This document shows positions 29,368-38,653 of a stretch of DNA of 38,920 nucleotides, in pieces. This DNA comes from Candidatus Marinimicrobia bacterium CG08_land_8_20_14_0_20_45_22 (lineage in GTDB: Bacteria; Fidelibacterota; UBA2242), in contig PEYN01000073.1 in assembly GCA_002774355.1 (NCBI GenBank), forward strand, positions 1 through 38,920, in the 5' to 3' direction. Within the stretch, counting starts at the first letter, position 1. Each line of letters starts with the position of its first letter. The notes below the pieces were generated by a model that ran no database searches, had not been told where the DNA came from, and saw only the letters and a list, made by a program, of their open reading frames with translations. The translations under genes were made by a program, and so were the position numbers.

Positions 29368-30882
29368 TTATTTCTCATTGACCGTTTCCCGATTAAAAAC
29401 CTGCGCTGAAAATATCTGAATTTCGGCGCTTTTATCTTTCCATGCATCACGAGGAAGTCCTGCTTTCAGACAAGTTTGTCCCAGAAACGTCTCTCTATCC
29501 CAGCCGTAATCAGTAGCAACCTGCGGAAGGAGTAGCCCCTGATAATAACCGCGACGAATGATGATGCCATGTTTCCCGACTTCGATCACATTCGGATTTG
29601 TGATTACTTCTGGAACAGTAAGAACGGAAACTTCGACGGTGATATCTTTCAGTTCGCGTTCTGAAACAGGCTGAAATCGCGGGTCTTCCAGCGCCGCCGA
29701 TTTAGCGACTTTCATTACCGTTTCATAAAGCGGATAAATCGGTAAAATATATCCGATACATCCGCGCAATTCGTGATTCTTTTCGAGCGTCACGAACGCG
29801 CCGCGATTTTCTTTCATTTTCGGTGGAATTTCTTTGAGATTTGGCATCGATTGGCTGGTTACAACCGCTTTGACCGTCGCTTCGGCGAGATCCAATAGCC
29901 AAACTTGTTCGTCATGCTTCAGTTCGCCTTTATTCAAGATTGATGAATCAATTCTCACTTCCTCTTTTACCTTCTCATTTCGATACATCACCGCGGCACA
30001 ATATCCGACGACTTGTGATTTACTCCCGCCGGGAACGTCGCCGCTATTTGCGTATTTCAGAATTTTTACGCGATTGGCTCCCACTTTTTGAGCGGCAATC
30101 ATAATGGCTACGACCGCCGCGCCGCCGCAAGCTTCATAATCACGCTCGTACAATCCAGTATAAAGCGCTTTTGGATTCATCCGTTCGATCTGCGTCATAA
30201 ATTTCTGATCGATCGCCTTGCACTGGTTGTACGGATGATAATGCGAAAGATCGGTGGATGCGATGAGAAGAACATTTTCCTTCGAGGCGATCTCGCCCAA
30301 TTTTTGACCCAGCGATTCGATCACTTGATAATCCATCGTTCCAATGACAATCGGAATAATAGGCACATTTCCGAAAATGGTTTGCAGAAACGGCAACTGA
30401 ATTTCCAGCGCATGTTCGCCGCGCTCCAGCATTTTCGCAACATGACCGACCGATGAGAATTTTACTAACCCGTTTTTCGTCTCGCAAAGCGCCGCCAACT
30501 TTTTATCAACAGGCATCTTGCCAAGCGGTGTAACATAAGAATCGCCGGGATAAATTGCGGCATACTGAAAATATTCGATATGCGACGGAGAGACAACAAT
30601 AACCGCGTCGTATTTCTGATCTTTGACCTCGTTGTAGGCATAAGCCGCGACCTGCCCGCTGTAAAATATTCCGGCATGCGGAGCAATCAGCGCGATGGGC
30701 TTGACACTTAGAATCTTCTTCCCTGTCTGGCTAAAAAACCGCTGAAGCGTGGCGGATAATTCACCGAGATTGTCGGGGTAAAACGATCCTGCCGCCGCCG
30801 GTTGCCTGTCCTGCGCTCCTGCGGCACGAAACATCAGGCAGACGAAAAGCAACAGAAACGAAAAAGTAAATAGGTGATTCAT
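29368..30882 (-). CDS. amrB-amrA: AmmeMemoRadiSam proteins B and A fused (Memo plus AMMECR1), exported
   Basis: The 504-residue protein begins with a Sec signal peptide (1-23, LLLFVCLMFRAAGA). A Memo domain (about 28-302) has PHAGIFYSG at 68-76, SPSH at 98-101, GEHALEIQLPFL at 155-166, STDLSHYH at 209-216 and a conserved-type cysteine at 252. An AMMECR1 domain (about 325-500) has LRGCIG at 372-377. In many genomes these are two genes of the AmmeMemoRadiSam set, whose biochemical job is not established. The start at 30882 has GGAGGT before it, built from the last codons of the radical SAM gene one base upstream. A longer frame inside that gene was rejected. Confidence 0.9.
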   Translation of the reverse strand: MNHLFTFSFLLLFVCLMFRAAGAQDRQPAAAGSFYPDNLGELSATLQRFFSQTGKKILSVKPIALIAPHAGIFYSGQVAAYAYNEVKDQKYDAVIVVSPSHIEYFQYAAIYPGDSYVTPLGKMPVDKKLAALCETKNGLVKFSSVGHVAKMLERGEHALEIQLPFLQTIFGNVPIIPIVIGTMDYQVIESLGQKLGEIASKENVLLIASTDLSHYHPYNQCKAIDQKFMTQIERMNPKALYTGLYERDYEACGGAAVVAIMIAAQKVGANRVKILKYANSGDVPGGSKSQVVGYCAAVMYRNEKVKEEVRIDSSILNKGELKHDEQVWLLDLAEATVKAVVTSQSMPNLKEIPPKMKENRGAFVTLEKNHELRGCIGYILPIYPLYETVMKVAKSAALEDPRFQPVSERELKDITVEVSVLTVPEVITNPNVIEVGKHGIIIRRGYYQGLLLPQVATDYGWDRETFLGQTCLKAGLPRDAWKDKSAEIQIFSAQVFNRETVNEK

Positions 30883-30883
30883 A

Positions 30884-32053
30884 TTACCTCCAGATTCCGG
30901 GAATTTTTGCTTGACAAACGCTGCACTTTCCATCGACAATTTTATTAGAGATGACAGAAAAACCAGCGCGTTCGATTAAGAGACTTCCGCAGTAAGGACA
31001 GTACGTATTCTCCTTCTTATTTGGGGGAACATTCCCGATGTAAACGTACTGAATTCCCGCTTCCCGCGCAATTTCGTAAGCCGTTTCCAGCGTCCGCGTC
31101 GGCGTTGGTGGAAGATTATTCATCTGATAATGCGGATAAAAGCGCGTAAAATGAACCGGCGTGTCGGTTCCAAGATTATTCACGACCCAGCGACTTAACT
31201 CGCGCAAAGAATTGCGATCATCATTCTGCGTTGGAATGACCAAATTGACGATTTCCAACCAAACGCCCTGTTCTTTAATCCGAACCATCGTATCAAGGAC
31301 AGGCTTCATCGACCCTGAGACAACTTCTGAATAGAATTTTTCCGAAAACGCCTTAAAATCGACCTTATATGCGGAAAGAACTTTGCATAAATCCAGCAGA
31401 GGCTGTTTTTGGATAAATCCATTGGAAATCATCACGCTGTGAACGCCGCGTTGTTTGGCAAGCGCCGCCGTGTCAAGAATATATTCAATAAAAATCGTCG
31501 GCTCGTTATAGGTAAAGGCTATCGTCGGCGACTGTTGGGATTTCGTCAAACTGACTAAGGCTTCTGGGGACAAATATTCGAATGGGATATCTTCCGGCTT
31601 AACCTGTGCAATATTCCAATTCTGGCAGAATTTGCATTGAACATTACATCCGGCAGTGGCAACCGAAACCGCCGTCGTTCCCGGCAAAAAGTGGAATAGC
31701 GGTTTTTTCTCGATCGGATCGAGGTTAATTGTACATAACCTTCCGTAAACTAATGTGTGATAGACGCCATCCCGGTTTTCGCGCACCCTGCAATAACCGC
31801 GTTGTCCCGGCGAAACGATGCAACTCTTCGGGCAAAGCTGACACTGAATGTTCTTCCCATCCAACTTTTTATAATAGCGAGCCTCACGAATGTACGGCTG
31901 TTCCGATTTCCCGGCAAAGGCATCACAAACAAATGTCGGCGCTATGACCACTCCGGCTAAACCTGTTGCCATTTTCAGGCAAAAGTCACGGCGAGACTGA
32001 TCGACGCCATCAGCCAATGAGTCGCTCGTTTTGATAAATTTTCGTTTTTTCAT
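30884..32053 (-). CDS. amrS: AmmeMemoRadiSam system radical SAM enzyme with Tat signal
   Basis: The 389-residue protein has a twin-arginine signal, SRRDFCLKMATGLAGVVIAP (20-39). A cysteine-rich N-terminal segment follows (CQLCPKSCIV, GYCRVREN), then the radical SAM motif CNVQCKFC with cysteines at 136, 140 and 143, GG-less but typical TIAFTYNEPTIF, and FTRFYPHY. A C-terminal CPYCG...CSVC zinc or iron module ends in IPGIWR. It matches the radical SAM member of the AmmeMemoRadiSam system and is followed one base later by the fused B/A gene. The ATG at 32053 (MKKRKF) was preferred to a GTG five codons upstream. The modified substrate is unknown. Confidence 0.9.
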   Translation of the reverse strand: MKKRKFIKTSDSLADGVDQSRRDFCLKMATGLAGVVIAPTFVCDAFAGKSEQPYIREARYYKKLDGKNIQCQLCPKSCIVSPGQRGYCRVRENRDGVYHTLVYGRLCTINLDPIEKKPLFHFLPGTTAVSVATAGCNVQCKFCQNWNIAQVKPEDIPFEYLSPEALVSLTKSQQSPTIAFTYNEPTIFIEYILDTAALAKQRGVHSVMISNGFIQKQPLLDLCKVLSAYKVDFKAFSEKFYSEVVSGSMKPVLDTMVRIKEQGVWLEIVNLVIPTQNDDRNSLRELSRWVVNNLGTDTPVHFTRFYPHYQMNNLPPTPTRTLETAYEIAREAGIQYVYIGNVPPNKKENTYCPYCGSLLIERAGFSVISNKIVDGKCSVCQAKIPGIWR

Positions 32054-32089
32054 CGCTACACTTACCACCAGAAATTAATTGGTATTGAA

Positions 32090-32516
32090 ATCGAATTCAA
32101 GAGCAAATATATTGTTTTTTCCATATATTCGCTTACTCACTGACAGATAAGGAAGTTAGCAGTAAAAATTTTCTTGGTTCTTTCCACATTCCGTTTACAT
32201 TTGTCCCATAATGAGTTTTTATGCAATGTATTGTTCCGCGCTGATGATTTAGTCATTGCGCAATTTGAGAAGCCTGATGAAGAACCAAAGTCTATCGTCC
32301 CGCTCCGCAAAGTCTTTCTGAAATATCCGTTTCAGGTTTAGTCCTGAACCTGCCTAACGACAAATCAGGTGGAATCAAGAAGATTTCATGAATACGAATT
32401 GCACCGATAACAAAAAAAGGAAATGGAATGGACAATCCCACAGGAATCCTGTTTTTTCCTATGTTTCGTTCCATCTTTCCCGTCACTCCCCGGAAAGCGC
32501 CGAACTATCTAAAATC
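32090..32516. other. Gene-poor stretch upstream of the tandem repeat
   Basis: I see no supportable gene here. A stop-bounded plus-strand frame ending at the TAG near 32342 reads LVIAQFEKPDEEPKSIVPLR and could be a decayed gene end, but it has no start codon. A 6-bp hairpin, CAGGTT/AACCTG, is near 32333-32352. Confidence 0.3.
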
Positions 32517-32747
32517 GAGAACAACCTCATTGCGGATGAGAATGGTTCCATTCCTGATTAGAATAACGCCTTTCCGGATGTGAACGACTTCATTCCGAAG
32601 CAGAATAACTCCTTTCCTGATGAGAACAACCCATTTCCGGAAAGGAATAACTCCATTCCTGATGAGAACAATTCCACTTCTTGCGGGAATGATCTCATTA
32701 TTGGAAAGAATGACCGCATCACGGAAACGAATGGCGTTCTGCAGAAC
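32517..32747. repeat. Eleven-unit 21-bp degenerate tandem repeat
   Basis: Eleven directly adjacent 21-base units have the approximate consensus GAGAATAACTCCATTCCTGA plus T. Central units (32601-32663) are most alike; the last three are strongly diverged. In the plus frame each unit reads like ENNSIPD, with AAY (asparagine) at codon two of all eleven, but a TAG interrupts unit three. In the minus frame the array stays open and reads IRNGVIL repeats (frame 32505-32756 from a possible ATG). There are no spacers, so it is not CRISPR. It ends about 100 bases before the gene at 32846. Confidence 0.85.
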
Positions 32748-32845
32748 TTTTACCATGAAATCCCGCTCGAATCTGACCATCGAATTCCAGATACTGGAAA
32801 GATAGAAAACAGAAAAAGAACAAGAAAAAACAGAAGGAGGCCGAA

Positions 32846-33520
32846 ATGGCAATGTCACAAAGTAACGTAATTCAGGATGCGGGGGTCGCGCTGGCCGCCG
32901 CGAAGAATCATGCAACGGAACTTGCAGAGGTCGGTATCACCACCGAAGATGTTGGGCGCGTCGAAACGCTCATTACAACCCTGACGGAGAAGGATTTCCA
33001 GCATAAGGAGAGCATAAGCCACGTCAGGCGGCTGACCGACGAACAGAACCTGCTGATTGGAAGAGGCCAGTTCATCATCGGGAAAATTCAATCCGCCGCA
33101 AAGGTGCAATTTTTCCGCAACAAGAACGTCCTGATCGAATTCCACATCGGAAAAGAAAAAGACAAAACCGTCGCCGAGGTCCTGAACGAATTGGGGTACA
33201 TGAAGGGACTGATGGTAACCTATGCGTCTCAACTGACGGCACGCGGCATCAAAGAGGTTGATTTGACGGAACTCAATGCCTGCCACACGGAACTTCAGGA
33301 GAAAGACCGCGAACAGGAAAACGCCAAACGCCTGCAAGTCCAGATTGGCGCAGAACGGAACGCGGCTCTCGCCGAATTGAAAGACGCGGTGGCGCTGATT
33401 CGTCAGTCCGCCAAGACTTGTTTCCGCGGAAATAAGACGATCCTCAACGAATTCAAGTCAATTCTCAAGGCGCGGAAACCGAAAACTCCGGACACGCCCG
33501 TACCGCCCGAAAACGCCTGA
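32846..33520 (+). CDS. Unknown helical protein made of two copies of one module
   Basis: I do not recognise a family. The 224-residue protein is predicted to be almost wholly helical, with no signal or membrane segment. Residues about 25-101 and 129-205 align without gaps at an offset of 104: LTEKD with LQEKD, DEQN with AERN, SAAKVQFFRNKNVLIEF with QSAKTCFRGNKTILNEF. The module ends in a basic F-x-x-NK-x-x-L-x-EF motif. A proline-rich tail (PKTPDTPVPPENA) closes it. AAGGAGG seven bases before ATG gives one of the strongest Shine-Dalgarno sites in the window. Base composition is visibly richer in G+C than the neighbours, a sign of separate origin. A hairpin follows at 33562. Confidence 0.75.
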   Translation: MAMSQSNVIQDAGVALAAAKNHATELAEVGITTEDVGRVETLITTLTEKDFQHKESISHVRRLTDEQNLLIGRGQFIIGKIQSAAKVQFFRNKNVLIEFHIGKEKDKTVAEVLNELGYMKGLMVTYASQLTARGIKEVDLTELNACHTELQEKDREQENAKRLQVQIGAERNAALAELKDAVALIRQSAKTCFRGNKTILNEFKSILKARKPKTPDTPVPPENA

Positions 33521-33561
33521 TGCGCGTTTGACAAGGAAACCGAATCACAAGTCGTCCAAAA

Positions 33562-33589
33562 GCCTTCCGAAGGAAAACCTTCGGAAGGC
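33562..33589. terminator. Perfect 12-bp hairpin after the duplicated-module gene
   Basis: GCCTTCCGAAGG and CCTTCGGAAGGC pair perfectly around an AAAA loop, 41 bases after the stop at 33520. The plus strand lacks a U-run after the stem, while the minus strand has TTTT. It is probably a terminator or RNA-stabilising hairpin for the upstream gene. The stretch 33590-33720 shows no gene. Confidence 0.6.
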
Positions 33590-33720: not shown

Positions 33721-33749
33721 TTGACATGAAAGATATTCCTTTGTAAAAT
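33721..33749 (+). promoter_or_regulatory. Near-consensus sigma-70 promoter of the restriction operon
   Basis: TTGACA (33721-33726) and TAAAAT (33744-33749) are exactly 17 bases apart. Transcription would begin near 33756, downstream of the first in-frame ATG at 33748. The second ATG at 33772 is therefore the likely start, with a leader of about 16 bases. Confidence 0.75.
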
Positions 33750-33771
33750 GACAATGAAGGCATTTTTTACA

Positions 33772-36700
33772 ATGAATACTGAAAATCCAATATTAAACAG
33801 TCCTTATAATGAACCCCTTCTGCATTACGCAACCGATACCGACGGCGCGCTGAACTATAGCGACATCCGTCCGGGAAGACGAATCTTCACACCTGATATT
33901 CAGGTCATTCCGACCAAACAGGGTCCTCAATCGGAAATCTTTGAGGTCAACGACACGCCAGGACAATACGGGAGTCACCTCATCAATCTCTGCCGGAGAG
34001 AAGTAGGGATCTGGAGAAATCAAAACTATCCCAACACAACCAGGGTCACCAAAGAACTTCTGATCTTTTGGTTTGAAAATCCAGATAGACACGCAGTTAA
34101 AAAACTATTCTTTGCTCAACGGGAAGCTATCGAAACAGCCGTCTGGTTAAATGAAGTCGCGGACAAATCAAACGCCGGGCAAAACATCCTGAATGTAATT
34201 CAGGAAGGACAGCGAAAAGAAATTGATGATCTTTCAAGTCAACTTCCCAGAATTGCTTTTAAAATGGCGACGGGAACCGGGAAAACGGTCGTTATTGCCT
34301 GCTTCATTCTCTATCACTATTTCAACAGACAGGAATATCGCAACGACACACGCTTTGCCGATTACTTCTTAGTACTTACGCCCGGAGTGACCATCAAAGA
34401 CCGTCTGGGTGTTTTGTTCGTTGATACCAACCATAAAAATCCGAACGAAATTGAAGATTACTATCACATTCGAGGATTAACGCCAAAACATCTCGAAACT
34501 CGACTTGAAAACCTCAACGCACGATTGATTGTTACAAATTATCATACTTTTGAACCAAAAACACTACAAGGTAACAAGCGTGGTGTCTATGATGGAAAAG
34601 TTGATTTGAACGGAAATAAGATTGATTCCGGGAATTCAGAGGATTTTTCAATTGTCGTTAAAAGAACTTTGGGAAAATTCAAATCCGGAACCCGTTTGCT
34701 CATTATCAACGACGAAGCACATCACTGCTATTTGCCAAAGTCAAAGGGAAAGACCTCTGACAACGAAGAATCCGATGAAAACGCCCGCGCCGCCGTCTGG
34801 TTTACCGGTATCAAAGAAATTTCACGGCGATTCAAAGTCCAGCAAGTGTATGATCTTTCTGCGACTCCATACTACCTTAAAGGTTCCGGCTATCAGGCGT
34901 ATGATTTATTCCCGTGGACGGTTATCGATTTTGGATTGATAGAGGCTATCGAATCCGGGCTTGTTAAGATTCCATTTATCCCGGAAAGCGATAATACTCA
35001 AGAATTGAAAATGCCAGTTCTTCGTAACTTGTATGAACATATAAAAAATGATTTACCTCAAAAGGGACAAAAGCGAAGGAAATCAGAAGCAAAAGAAGAA
35101 GGTTCTAACGTAAAGGAACTTCCACCAAAATTACCCAGACTGCTTAAAATTGCTTTAGATCAATTCTATGAACACTATGAAGATTATGATAAAGGGTGCC
35201 GCGAACAACAGGAAGAAGCCAAAAACCTGTTGACGTCACCCCCCGTTTTTATTATTGTTTGCAATAATACGTCCGTTTCAAAAGAAGTTTATAAATATAT
35301 CGCTGGTTATGAATTCGAAGATCCCAACGGAGCGGTTCGGACTGTTCCCGGTATCAAGGAAATGTTCTCCAATTATGACATCTCAACTGGCAGACCATTA
35401 AAACGTCCACCAACACTGTTAATCGATAGTGATGCTCTCGAAAACAACAACCAGATCAATGATGATTTTAAAAAAATTTTCGCATCGGAAATCGGAGAAT
35501 TCAAACGCGATTATGTCAGGATACACGGACAGGGCAGCACTGAAAAAATCACCGAAACCGAAATCCTGCGCGAGGTCGTTAACACGGTTGGAAAGCCGGG
35601 GAAATTAGGCTCCCATATTCGGTGTGTAGTATCTGTCTCGATGCTGACAGAAGGCTGGGACGCCAACACCGTAACCCATATCATGGGCATTCGCGCTTTT
35701 GGCTCTCAATTGCTATGCGAACAGGTCGCCGGTCGCGCTTTGCGCCGGGTGAACTATACTCTGAAAGGATATGACAAAGAAGGCAACCCAACGGAAGATA
35801 AACGTAAAATCACGGCCTACAAATTTCCCCCGGAATATGCCCACATTATCGGAGTTCCTTTTAAAATGTTCAAAGGTGGAAAAACTCCACCACCACCGCC
35901 ACCGCAAAAAACAACAAAAATATTTGCGATGGAAGCAAGGCAATCTTTATATGAGATTACTTTTCCGAATGTTGTCGGCTATCGTATAGATAATACCGAT
36001 GGTAAAATAACACATGATTTTTCAGGTATCGAGAATTTCCAGATTCAGGGAAATATGACGCCGATCCGTACCAAATTAGCCAACGCATTTTCCCCGCAGG
36101 AAATCGAATTAAAAATCCAAAGTGTTCTGGAGAAAAGAGACGCCGAAATTATCTTCTGGCTTACCAAAGAACTCATCAATGTCCATTTCAGTGATGACGA
36201 TGGTAATAAACAATTCCAAAAATTCGGGAAACTGAAAAAAATCGTCGAAGAATGGTATAAGACCAAAGTGGAACTTCTCAATATACGCGGTGATCAGTAT
36301 AAACGACTGCTTTATTTCGAAAATCTTAAAACCGTTGTAGATCATATTGCACGTGGAATTAATACCGATAAAAACACCTCTGACTTTATCCGGCCGTTTT
36401 TTAACTACTACAACAAATTCAACAGCACTAAGTACGTTTTCGGCCAAACCACTAAAGAGGTTTATTGGACTACTAAAAGCCACGTGAATGCCGTTGTTAT
36501 GGATAGCGGATGGGAAGGTATAGCCGCCAAGTCACTCGAGGAATTGGACGAAGTTGTTTCCTATGTGAAAAATCAGTTTCTCGGATTGGCAATTCCTTAT
36601 GTTAAAGATGGCAAGGATCATTCGTACTTCCCTGATTTTGTCGCTCGGGTCATTGGAAAAGACAGTAAATCGAAAAACCTGCTGATTGAAATCTCCGGCA

Positions 36701-36867
36701 TGAGTCAGGACAAAGCCGAAAAGAAATGGTTCGTCGAAAATCGCTGGCTTCCGGCTGTCAACGCCGTCAAGGATAAATATCAATACCCCGAATGGCATTT
36801 CATCGAAATCGCCAACGATATTCGGAATATTAAAAACGAACTCATCGAGAAAATCAATTCGCTGTAA
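33772..36867 (+). CDS. Large helicase-nuclease of type III Res / BPTD_3080 restriction family
   Basis: The product (1031 residues from the ATG at 33772) has an SF2 helicase core: Walker A MATGTGKT at 165-172, DEAH at 314-317, DLSATPYY around 361-368, and motif VI region [18 protein letters not shown]-terminal PD-(D/E)xK-type segment reads YFPDFVARV then LLIEISGMS (about 951-975), where the final lysine position is serine. Such proteins are DNA translocating restriction subunits that work with a methyltransferase, here apparently the partial gene at 38665. The longer start at 33748 lies inside the -10 box and is rejected. [13 protein letters not shown] linker is notable. Confidence 0.85.
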
Positions 36868-36870
36868 ACG

Positions 36871-38526
36871 ATGAACGAAGAACAACTCAGGGAAAAATTA
36901 CAGAAACTTCGCTCGCTTCCGGGCGAAGCAGAGACTGTCGAGTTTAAAGAGGCAAAAAGCGGTTATGATTTTCATAAAATTGGCAAATATTTCTCTGCAC
37001 TGAGCAATGAGGCGAATATTAAGGTTAAAAATGAATCCTGGCTGATCTTCGGGGTGAGGAACAAGGATAGGGAAATAGTCGGTTCCAATTATCGGGCTGG
37101 CAATCGGCCTTATTTAGATAGTTTAAAAAACGAGATTGGAGAAAAAACTACCGGTCGGATTACTTTTGTCGAAATATTTGAACTAACCATGCCGGAAGGC
37201 AGAGTGGTCATGTTCCATATTCCTCCCGCGCCACAAGGAATCCCGGTCGCCTGGGAAGGACATTATTATGGTAGAGACGGCGAATCGTTACGCCCGCTAA
37301 ACATCGAAGAAATAGAACGTATCCGTAGGCAGGTCACTAATTACGACTGGAGTGGCGAAATCTGTTCGGGTGCAACCTTTAATGATCTTGATGCTGATGC
37401 CATTAGAATTGCACGGGAATCTTTTAAAAAGAAAAATCCGCGACTGGCAGATGAGACGAATTCATGGAACAACCTTACTTTTTTAAATAATGCCCGGATT
37501 ACCATCGACTCTCAAATAACCCGTACCGCTGTTCTTTTACTTGGCAAACCCGAATCGGCGCATCATATCGCTCCGGCAATTGCCCAGATTACCTGGACTC
37601 TGAGGGATAAAGACGCTGTCGAAAAGGACTATGAACATTTCTATTGTCCCTTTGTAAAGGCCGTAGATCAGGTATTCGCTAAAATCCGCAATCTGAAATA
37701 TCGCTATCTGAAACAGGGAACTCTATTTCCCGAAGAAATCGATCAGTACGAACCACTTAATATTAAAGAAGCCTTGAGTAATTGTATCGCTCATCAGGAT
37801 TACACCTTAGACGGTAGAATTACCGTTACCGAAAGCGAAGATGGTTACCTGACTTTTGTCAATCCGGGTTCTTTCCTGCCCGGCTCTATTGAAAAAGTTT
37901 TGCATAGTCAGAATCCGCCTTCATACTATCGGAATCAATTTTTAACCCAGGCAATGCTGAAACTGAATATGATCGACACCGTTGGCGGTGGCATCAAACG
38001 AATGTTTCGTCTTCAGCGCGAGCGCTTCTTCCCGCTTCCGGAATATGATCTTTCCGATAACTTAGTTAGAGTGGTTTTAATCGGAAAAATGTTGAATCCG
38101 GAGTATGCCAGAGTGCTGGCTCTGAATCCCGATCTTAGCCTGGAGGAAATTATACTCCTGGACAAGGTGCAAAAGAAAAAAGAATTAACCAAAGACGAAG
38201 CTCATCATCTGAAGGAGAGAAGGCTAATCGAAGGACGAAAGCCAAATTACCATATATCGGCCTCGATTGCCAAGACTACCGGCCAGTCCACTGACTATAT
38301 GAGGTTAAAAGGCGTCGATGATCAATTTATTCGTAAGATGATTATCGAACATCTCGATAAATTCGGGGAAACCAAAAAAATAGCATTTGAAAAAGTTATG
38401 TTAAGTAAGATATCTGATAATCTGACCGAACAGCAGAAAAAAAATAAGATTAGGAATATCCTGCAGGATCTGAAAAGAAAAGGCAAGATCATCAACAAGG
38501 GTAAAATCTGGACAATTAATCCGTGA
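36871..38526 (+). CDS. AlbA_2/Schlafen-type ATP-binding protein in the restriction operon
   Basis: The 551-residue protein has an N-terminal AlbA_2 (Schlafen-like, putative nucleic-acid-binding) domain at about 15-150 (ETVEFKEAKSGYDFHKIGKYFSAL, SWLIFGV, YYGRDGES). A GHKL-type ATPase region (HATPase_c_4) follows at about 300-400, with NIKEALSNCIAHQDY as N-box, YLTFVNPGSF, and DTVGGGIKRM. The last 60 residues look like a winged helix (IRNILQDLKRKGKIINKG). It starts three bases after the helicase-nuclease stop with no Shine-Dalgarno, implying coupling. Relatives are annotated as regulators or DNA-binding proteins; a regulatory or accessory defence role is inferred. Confidence 0.8.
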   Translation: MNEEQLREKLQKLRSLPGEAETVEFKEAKSGYDFHKIGKYFSALSNEANIKVKNESWLIFGVRNKDREIVGSNYRAGNRPYLDSLKNEIGEKTTGRITFVEIFELTMPEGRVVMFHIPPAPQGIPVAWEGHYYGRDGESLRPLNIEEIERIRRQVTNYDWSGEICSGATFNDLDADAIRIARESFKKKNPRLADETNSWNNLTFLNNARITIDSQITRTAVLLLGKPESAHHIAPAIAQITWTLRDKDAVEKDYEHFYCPFVKAVDQVFAKIRNLKYRYLKQGTLFPEEIDQYEPLNIKEALSNCIAHQDYTLDGRITVTESEDGYLTFVNPGSFLPGSIEKVLHSQNPPSYYRNQFLTQAMLKLNMIDTVGGGIKRMFRLQRERFFPLPEYDLSDNLVRVVLIGKMLNPEYARVLALNPDLSLEEIILLDKVQKKKELTKDEAHHLKERRLIEGRKPNYHISASIAKTTGQSTDYMRLKGVDDQFIRKMIIEHLDKFGETKKIAFEKVMLSKISDNLTEQQKKNKIRNILQDLKRKGKIINKGKIWTINP

Positions 38527-38540
38527 AATGGTTAATAAGC

Positions 38541-38653
38541 ATGAAATACTTAGACATTTTCCAGGATATCTTTAGACATTTTTTAGATATCCGTTAGAGA
38601 GAACCTGGATGAATTACTTAGATATCTTTAAACATTTTTTAGACATTTTATAG
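38541..38653 (+). repeat. Duplicated AT-rich element between the ATPase and methyltransferase genes
   Basis: Two related segments, 38541-38597 and 38609-38653, share the words ACTTAGA-AT-TTT and TTTARACATTTTTTAGA. Each starts with ATG and ends with TAG, so they can be read as peptides MKYLDIFQDIFRHFLDIR and MNYLDIFKHFLDIL. Whether they are translated or are DNA-level iterons cannot be told; no clear Shine-Dalgarno is present. Confidence 0.6.

Follow-up and report, generated by a model that had tools for sequence, protein, structure and literature searches.

Tandem arrays with a fixed 21-bp period and a changing unit sequence upstream of genes encoding a predicted two-module coiled-coil protein family

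The array and gene at the locus

The locus described here lies in a window of 38.9 kb (the whole stretch of DNA that was analysed) and consists of an array of imperfect direct repeats, a leader and a gene for a 224-aa protein, flanked by two inverted-repeat elements (Table 1). A sequence-only reading of the window had described it as a self-contained accessory locus that combines a duplicated helical module with a 21-bp repeat, and comparative data support this description. The unit of gene and array is compact, at about 1.1 kb. The features that had been listed for the gene, namely a strong ribosome-binding site (aggagg ahead of the ATG), a G+C-richer composition (53.2 % compared with 43.4 % for the window) and a hairpin of its own (the perfect inverted repeat on its 3′ side), were all borne out. 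The tandem repeat noted in the leader region is also real, but at about 11 units and 232 bp it is larger than had been reported. TRF detects it at 32517-32676 with a period of 21 and at 32560-32676 with a period of 42, and its lag autocorrelation reaches 0.59, 0.61 and 0.59 at lags 21, 42 and 63, indicating higher-order similarity at 42 and 63 bp; strong self-similarity at these lags is found nowhere else in the window.

Table 1. Coordinates of the features of the locus within the window
Feature	Position	Strand	Basis
Terminator-like hairpin acaggaatcctgt-tttttcc, immediately 5′ of the array	32440..32460	+	pattern scan
Array of about 11 imperfect 21-bp direct repeats, consensus TTCCGGATGAGAATAACTCCA	32509..32740	+	TRF, lag autocorrelation
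Leader from array to start codon, with Shine-Dalgarno sequence aggagg	32741..32845	+	sequence, sister-species comparison
Gene for a predicted two-module coiled-coil protein, putative diverged PQLLE-family member	32846..33520	+	ORF, 224 aa
Perfect inverted repeat gccttccgaagg-aaaa-ccttcggaaggc, 3′ of the gene	about 33561..33588	+	sequence

The inverted repeat downstream of the gene may mark a transcript end, while the terminator-like hairpin stems from a pattern scan in which such sites were no more numerous than in shuffled sequences. An Rfam search of the locus gave no match. Close to the end of the window (38550-38598) lies a two-copy 22-bp tandem repeat, TTAGACATTTTCCAGGATATCG.

In a sister species (G001; genomes, contigs and loci are designated by G, C and L numbers), the protein is 92 % and the gene 93 % identical to those of the window, and the array can be aligned without gaps at 90 % identity, with an unchanged repeat count. 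The 105 nt or so that separate the array from the start codon are the best-conserved stretch of the locus (98 % identity). Gene order is mostly kept, with two additional genes upstream of the array in G001. In the window, a Memo-AMMECR1 fusion adjoins a radical-SAM gene (29368-32068), and the extra G001 genes, located between this pair and the array, appear by eye to encode a 4Fe-4S membrane protein and a DUF362-like protein.

A duplicated module and its family

The proposal that the protein was built by duplication of a helical module at an exact offset of 104 residues is borne out by shuffling, by a scan of all offsets, by profile comparison and by the predicted helices. The gapless alignment of residues 25-101 with residues 129-205 is identical at 20 of 77 positions and has a BLOSUM62 score of 63, compared with −60 ± 18 for shuffled sequences (none of 20000 scored as high), and 104 is the top-scoring self-alignment offset among all those between 20 and 149. 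Alignments of the two halves match each other in hhalign (98.9 %, E 3.2e-17, one single comparison). The AF2 model (pLDDT 79.7 and pTM 0.64, from a shallow alignment of two sequences) repeats the same layout in both modules, a short helix followed by one of ~56 residues and a further short one (5-21, 33-88 and 93-99 in the first module; 109-125, 137-192 and 197-208 in the second), with equivalent helices starting exactly 104 residues apart. The product is best explained, on this model, as an elongated two-module coiled-coil protein.

The family, which had not been recognized in the sequence-only reading, is not wholly unknown, because the protein weakly matches the NCBIfam entry NF052641 (PQLLE family protein; 47.4 bits, E 1.9e-12); on the other hand, that entry has no described function, and a Pfam search of the protein returned no domain. 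The alignment of residues 3-202 with profile positions 3-208 of 211 covers both modules, in the same two-module layout along nearly the whole profile, whereas the score falls short of the curated whole-protein cut-off of 80 bits, which is exceeded by the relatives at L024 (258 bits) and L098 (145 bits). Judged by its sequence, the protein is a diverged relative of NF052641, and since this sole match spans both modules, no known family lacking the duplication was matched with confidence. Sequence searches of PHROGs and the PDB gave nothing usable, no relative was detected in the viral contigs, plasmids and phages searched, and Foldseek comparison of the AF2 model with the PDB and BFVD returned generic coiled coils only, none with E <0.001. 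A literature search found no paper that names the PQLLE family or mentions an upstream array.

Some family members carry additional regions. At L097 (G364:C43), where the setting is operon-like and an array is lacking, a PQLLE domain is fused to an apparent inorganic pyrophosphatase, while the members at L026 and L027 (G247), whose genes are also preceded by 21-bp arrays, have extra C-terminal regions that by eye resemble fibronectin/Ig-type domains.

Arrays upstream of family genes

Under one fixed criterion for all loci, an array of exactly 21-bp period no more than 450 bp upstream, 15 of the 23 family loci are array-positive, compared with 2 of 670 background genes of the window's genome, one of these two being a heptamer repeat. 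The Fisher p value of 2e-23 is not to be taken literally because some of the loci depend on one another and a single genome supplied the background, but the association is large whatever its exact value. Arrays precede three more paralogues in the window's genome (L030, L031 and L032) and family members in G003, G007, G247, G301, G389, G534, G539 and G540; the arrays were initially noticed in the window's genome, and 11 of the array-positive loci belong to genomes other than the window's, other phyla included. A further search for the family within the phylum of G389 added no new loci. The eight loci counted as lacking an upstream array are L008, L025, L097, L099, L104, L105, L029, where 256 bp of upstream sequence is present, and L039, where an array lies on the 3′ side, beside a single-module gene whose match to a module profile from which it had been left out has an E of 4e-4 (one single comparison).

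An unbiased scan covering 0.98 Mb of the 2.63 Mb of the window's genome revealed few additional arrays, and the other lag-21 signals in that genome are heptamer repeats. Two orphan arrays, L135 and L125, have no family gene nearby; L128 lies at a contig end, as does L065, which precedes a strong Shine-Dalgarno sequence. The heptamer direct repeats (CCCGTTA / GGGTAAC; L041 2720-2930 and L063 4780-4870) are of the TAACTGA-repeat kind.

In several bacterial groups, genes of this coiled-coil family are thus usually preceded by 21-bp arrays whose unit varies while the period is fixed. The suggestion that homologues might be accompanied by the same flanking repeats holds for the presence of 21-bp arrays but not for their sequence, which changes with almost every locus. 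As one array shows no sequence match to another, such arrays would escape homology searches.

A fixed period and a changing unit

Of 17 arrays, which contain 7-28 units each, almost all have a period of 21 and not of 20 or 22. The best spacing between consecutive units is almost always 21 (L024 and L034 are 20-21 mixtures), and the identity at lag 21 is 0.4-0.65, most arrays dropping to 0.2-0.3 when the lag is 20 or 22. Units inside one array diverge by 35-60 %, and a common unit is clear in 3 of 190 array pairs, namely L098 with L101, the window array with orphan L135, and L028, from another genus, with orphan L125. Purine, G+C and keto profiles revealed no sequence pattern shared across the arrays; a dipole of a purine half and a pyrimidine half is raised on average and missing in about half of them. 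The orphan L135 (G000:C91, 2883-3071) carries the window's unit in inverted orientation. A 22-bp-period array with the palindromic unit CCCGAAGATGTCTTCAACCCTA lies upstream of a ligA-like gene at L130 (G000:C86, 5384-5582).

Since 21 nt equals seven codons, the arrays were tested as reading frames for a seven-residue-repeat peptide coupled to the gene. A stop-free sense frame occurs in 12 of the 17 arrays, compared with 5.8 expected from column shuffling, which ignores dinucleotide bias, and the sister-species pair yields a dN/dS of about 0.39 in one sense frame. However, the ratio is much the same (0.42) in an antisense frame, third-position variability is not in excess in any of the 17 arrays (combined p 0.94), six of them (L024, L034, L098, L102, L103 and L039) contain indels whose length is not divisible by three, and the window array carries an in-frame TAG that is absent from the sister species. 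A heptad-repeat peptide gene was rejected on account of the missing codon-phase bias and the frame-breaking indels, and any coding role of the arrays is regarded as highly improbable. RNA structure was likewise rejected as a general explanation, because only some of the arrays fall below their column-shuffled controls in folding (mean z −1.2, p 0.013).

The distance between array and start codon ranges from 15 to 280 nt across loci. The arrays of L027 and L100 stop 15 and 27 nt short of the start codon, too close for a promoter to fit in between, and the sense strand of the arrays is rich in A over T (p 0.001); on both grounds, a position within the transcribed leader is favoured. Such a position would also suit a leader repeat that tunes expression by its length, through promoter-to-start spacing or RNA accessibility, with no binding of the protein to the array. 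Tandem repeats ahead of some surface-protein genes are a precedent, among them the AGAT repeats of the UspA2 leader cited in PMC4679880. Length-setting repeats are usually near-exact and variable in number, whereas the units here are strongly diverged and their count is identical in the sister species, and the strict 21-bp period would have no reason; this explanation is considered unlikely.

The relation between protein and unit can be followed in the orthologues L098, L101 and L102, which are 66-71 % identical, all keep the 21-bp period and occupy non-syntenic positions in differing gene neighbourhoods. L098 and L101 (69 % identical) have related units, whereas those of L101 and L102 (71 % identical) are unrelated. 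The first 19 residues are nearly all common to L098 and L101 and have diverged in L102, and the genes themselves contrast in the same way over their first 60 nt. Either a swap of the array together with the 5′ end of the gene or co-evolution of N-terminus and unit would explain this single case.

Neighbouring genes: transposases and defence systems

IS200-type (Y1) transposase genes adjoin the arrays of two family loci (G003:C98 and G003:C93), the orphan array L135 lies between such a gene and one for an FG-GAP-like secreted protein, and the only Y1 gene of G001 adjoins a 22-bp array (L166, about 2313, G001:C104). The arrays might accordingly be satellite- or REP-like selfish elements, produced or carried by Y1 transposases or arising by slippage, and piling up beside mobile accessory genes, with the family gene a frequent passenger. 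The palindromic units of L028, L039 and L065 would fit such an origin, yet clear palindromy is limited to these 3 of 17 arrays (p 0.17 for the window unit), no Y1 gene is found near most family loci, and arrays are missing from the majority of the roughly 30 Y1 loci that were checked. In addition, REPs represent one sequence in many copies per genome, while nearly every array here has its own unit. A selfish origin is rated as rather unlikely.

The link to an adjacent restriction operon, made in the sequence-only reading, proved only suggestive. A BPTD_3080-family restriction gene (NF046055, 1041 bits) does follow the gene at 33748-38526, together with a second gene that encodes a RecG-C-like HATPase_c_4 domain with weak PADLOC pAgo-type matches; however, the restriction gene is probably a separate transcription unit because it has a promoter-like site of its own (TTGACA-17-TAAAAT at 33721). 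If the protein were a coiled-coil sensor or scaffold of an anti-phage system, carried with its array in defence islands, defence genes would be expected nearby, and within about 3 kb there are indeed the BPTD_3080 enzyme in the window, a PLD/ResIII helicase (L031), a type IIG enzyme (L032), CRISPR-Cas I-B genes (L028), a NucC-like nuclease (L033), a PD-Lambda-3_A-like protein (L034) and HSDR_N with DUF559 (L102). Against this, L030, L024, L098, L026, L027 and L100 have no recognized defence neighbour, and the genome is itself defence-rich, 60 random genes matching 83 PADLOC models at E 1e-9. The proximity of family loci to defence genes is thus only weakly enriched, and an enrichment is not claimed because random genes of the same genome often match defence models. 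The protein was also rejected as a known defence protein, its best match to PADLOC models being a non-significant, partial one to an ATPase model (E 0.0077). A defence role is held to be quite improbable.

A proposed pairing of protein and array

The explanation that is preferred, tentatively and with somewhat less than even confidence, is that gene and array form one self-contained, movable unit, in which the coiled-coil protein would bind its own multivalent nucleic-acid platform, probably located within the leader of its gene. At a fixed pitch of 21 bp, equal to two turns of B-DNA, all sites would lie on one face of the helix. Paralogue by paralogue, the protein would fit its own unit sequence, and replacement of the unit would leave the period intact. 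Through binding, the protein would exert feedback on its own expression, an ordered nucleoprotein assembly may form, and movement of the pair would account for its differing genomic positions in related genomes. Alternatively, the substrate may be the RNA, a regularly spaced leader occupied by the elongated coiled-coil protein.

Geometry is suggested because the two-helical-turn pitch is kept while the sequence is free; it is rare for spacing to be conserved where sequence is not, and this suggests that the nucleic acid is constrained in its geometry. Several observations count against a platform: the protein searches recognized no DNA- or RNA-binding domain and no fold match, sequence-specific sites would be expected to diverge less than the 35-60 % seen within an array, eight members of the family have no upstream array and two arrays are orphans. 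The platform also draws on a single case for the N-terminus (L102) and on one genome for the background rate.

The pairs of array and protein may further represent a distinct class of mobile unit, in which the period of 21 bp is selected while the unit sequence turns over with the recognition surface of the protein, a proposal put forward with slightly more reserve than the platform itself. The unit is compact and occurs in several phyla, one genome holds paralogues whose arrays differ, and a swap has occurred naturally among close orthologues, so that both the reader of the 21-bp pitch and its co-evolution with the unit are directly testable.

Comparison with known systems

Plasmid iterons are direct repeats with a pitch of 20-22 bp, or two helical turns, located beside the gene of the Rep protein that binds them. 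The arrays resemble them in that direct repeats at a two-helical-turn pitch adjoin a protein gene, whose product would bind them. They differ in that the 224-aa protein has neither a recognized Rep domain nor any Pfam domain or plasmid homologue, the setting is not one of plasmids or replication, and the units are much more diverged. An iteron/Rep replication system was rejected for want of an initiator domain and a plasmid context.

REP/BIME elements and their RAYT (Y1) transposases (PMC2817692, PMC3733652) share with the arrays their nature as small extragenic repeats, some of them palindromic, and a Y1 transposase next to a few arrays. Unlike them, the arrays are tandem, with a 21-bp period and a private unit per locus, and most have neither palindrome nor transposase. 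At the window locus a REP/RAYT system is disfavoured, as neither phmmer nor a genome search with PF01797 found a Y1 transposase in the window, in contrast to G003:C98 and C93. The TAACTGA repeats (PMC4679880) are also intergenic tandem direct repeats upstream of genes, but consist of a fixed heptamer with a 7-bp period, and the 21-bp arrays are distinct from the heptamer-type arrays L041 and L063 of the same genome.

None of the described systems compared fits the array and the protein together. No description of 21-bp arrays emerged from literature searches, which is no proof of novelty; the pairing of array and coiled-coil family is rated as categorically new because no family or system compared has both parts.
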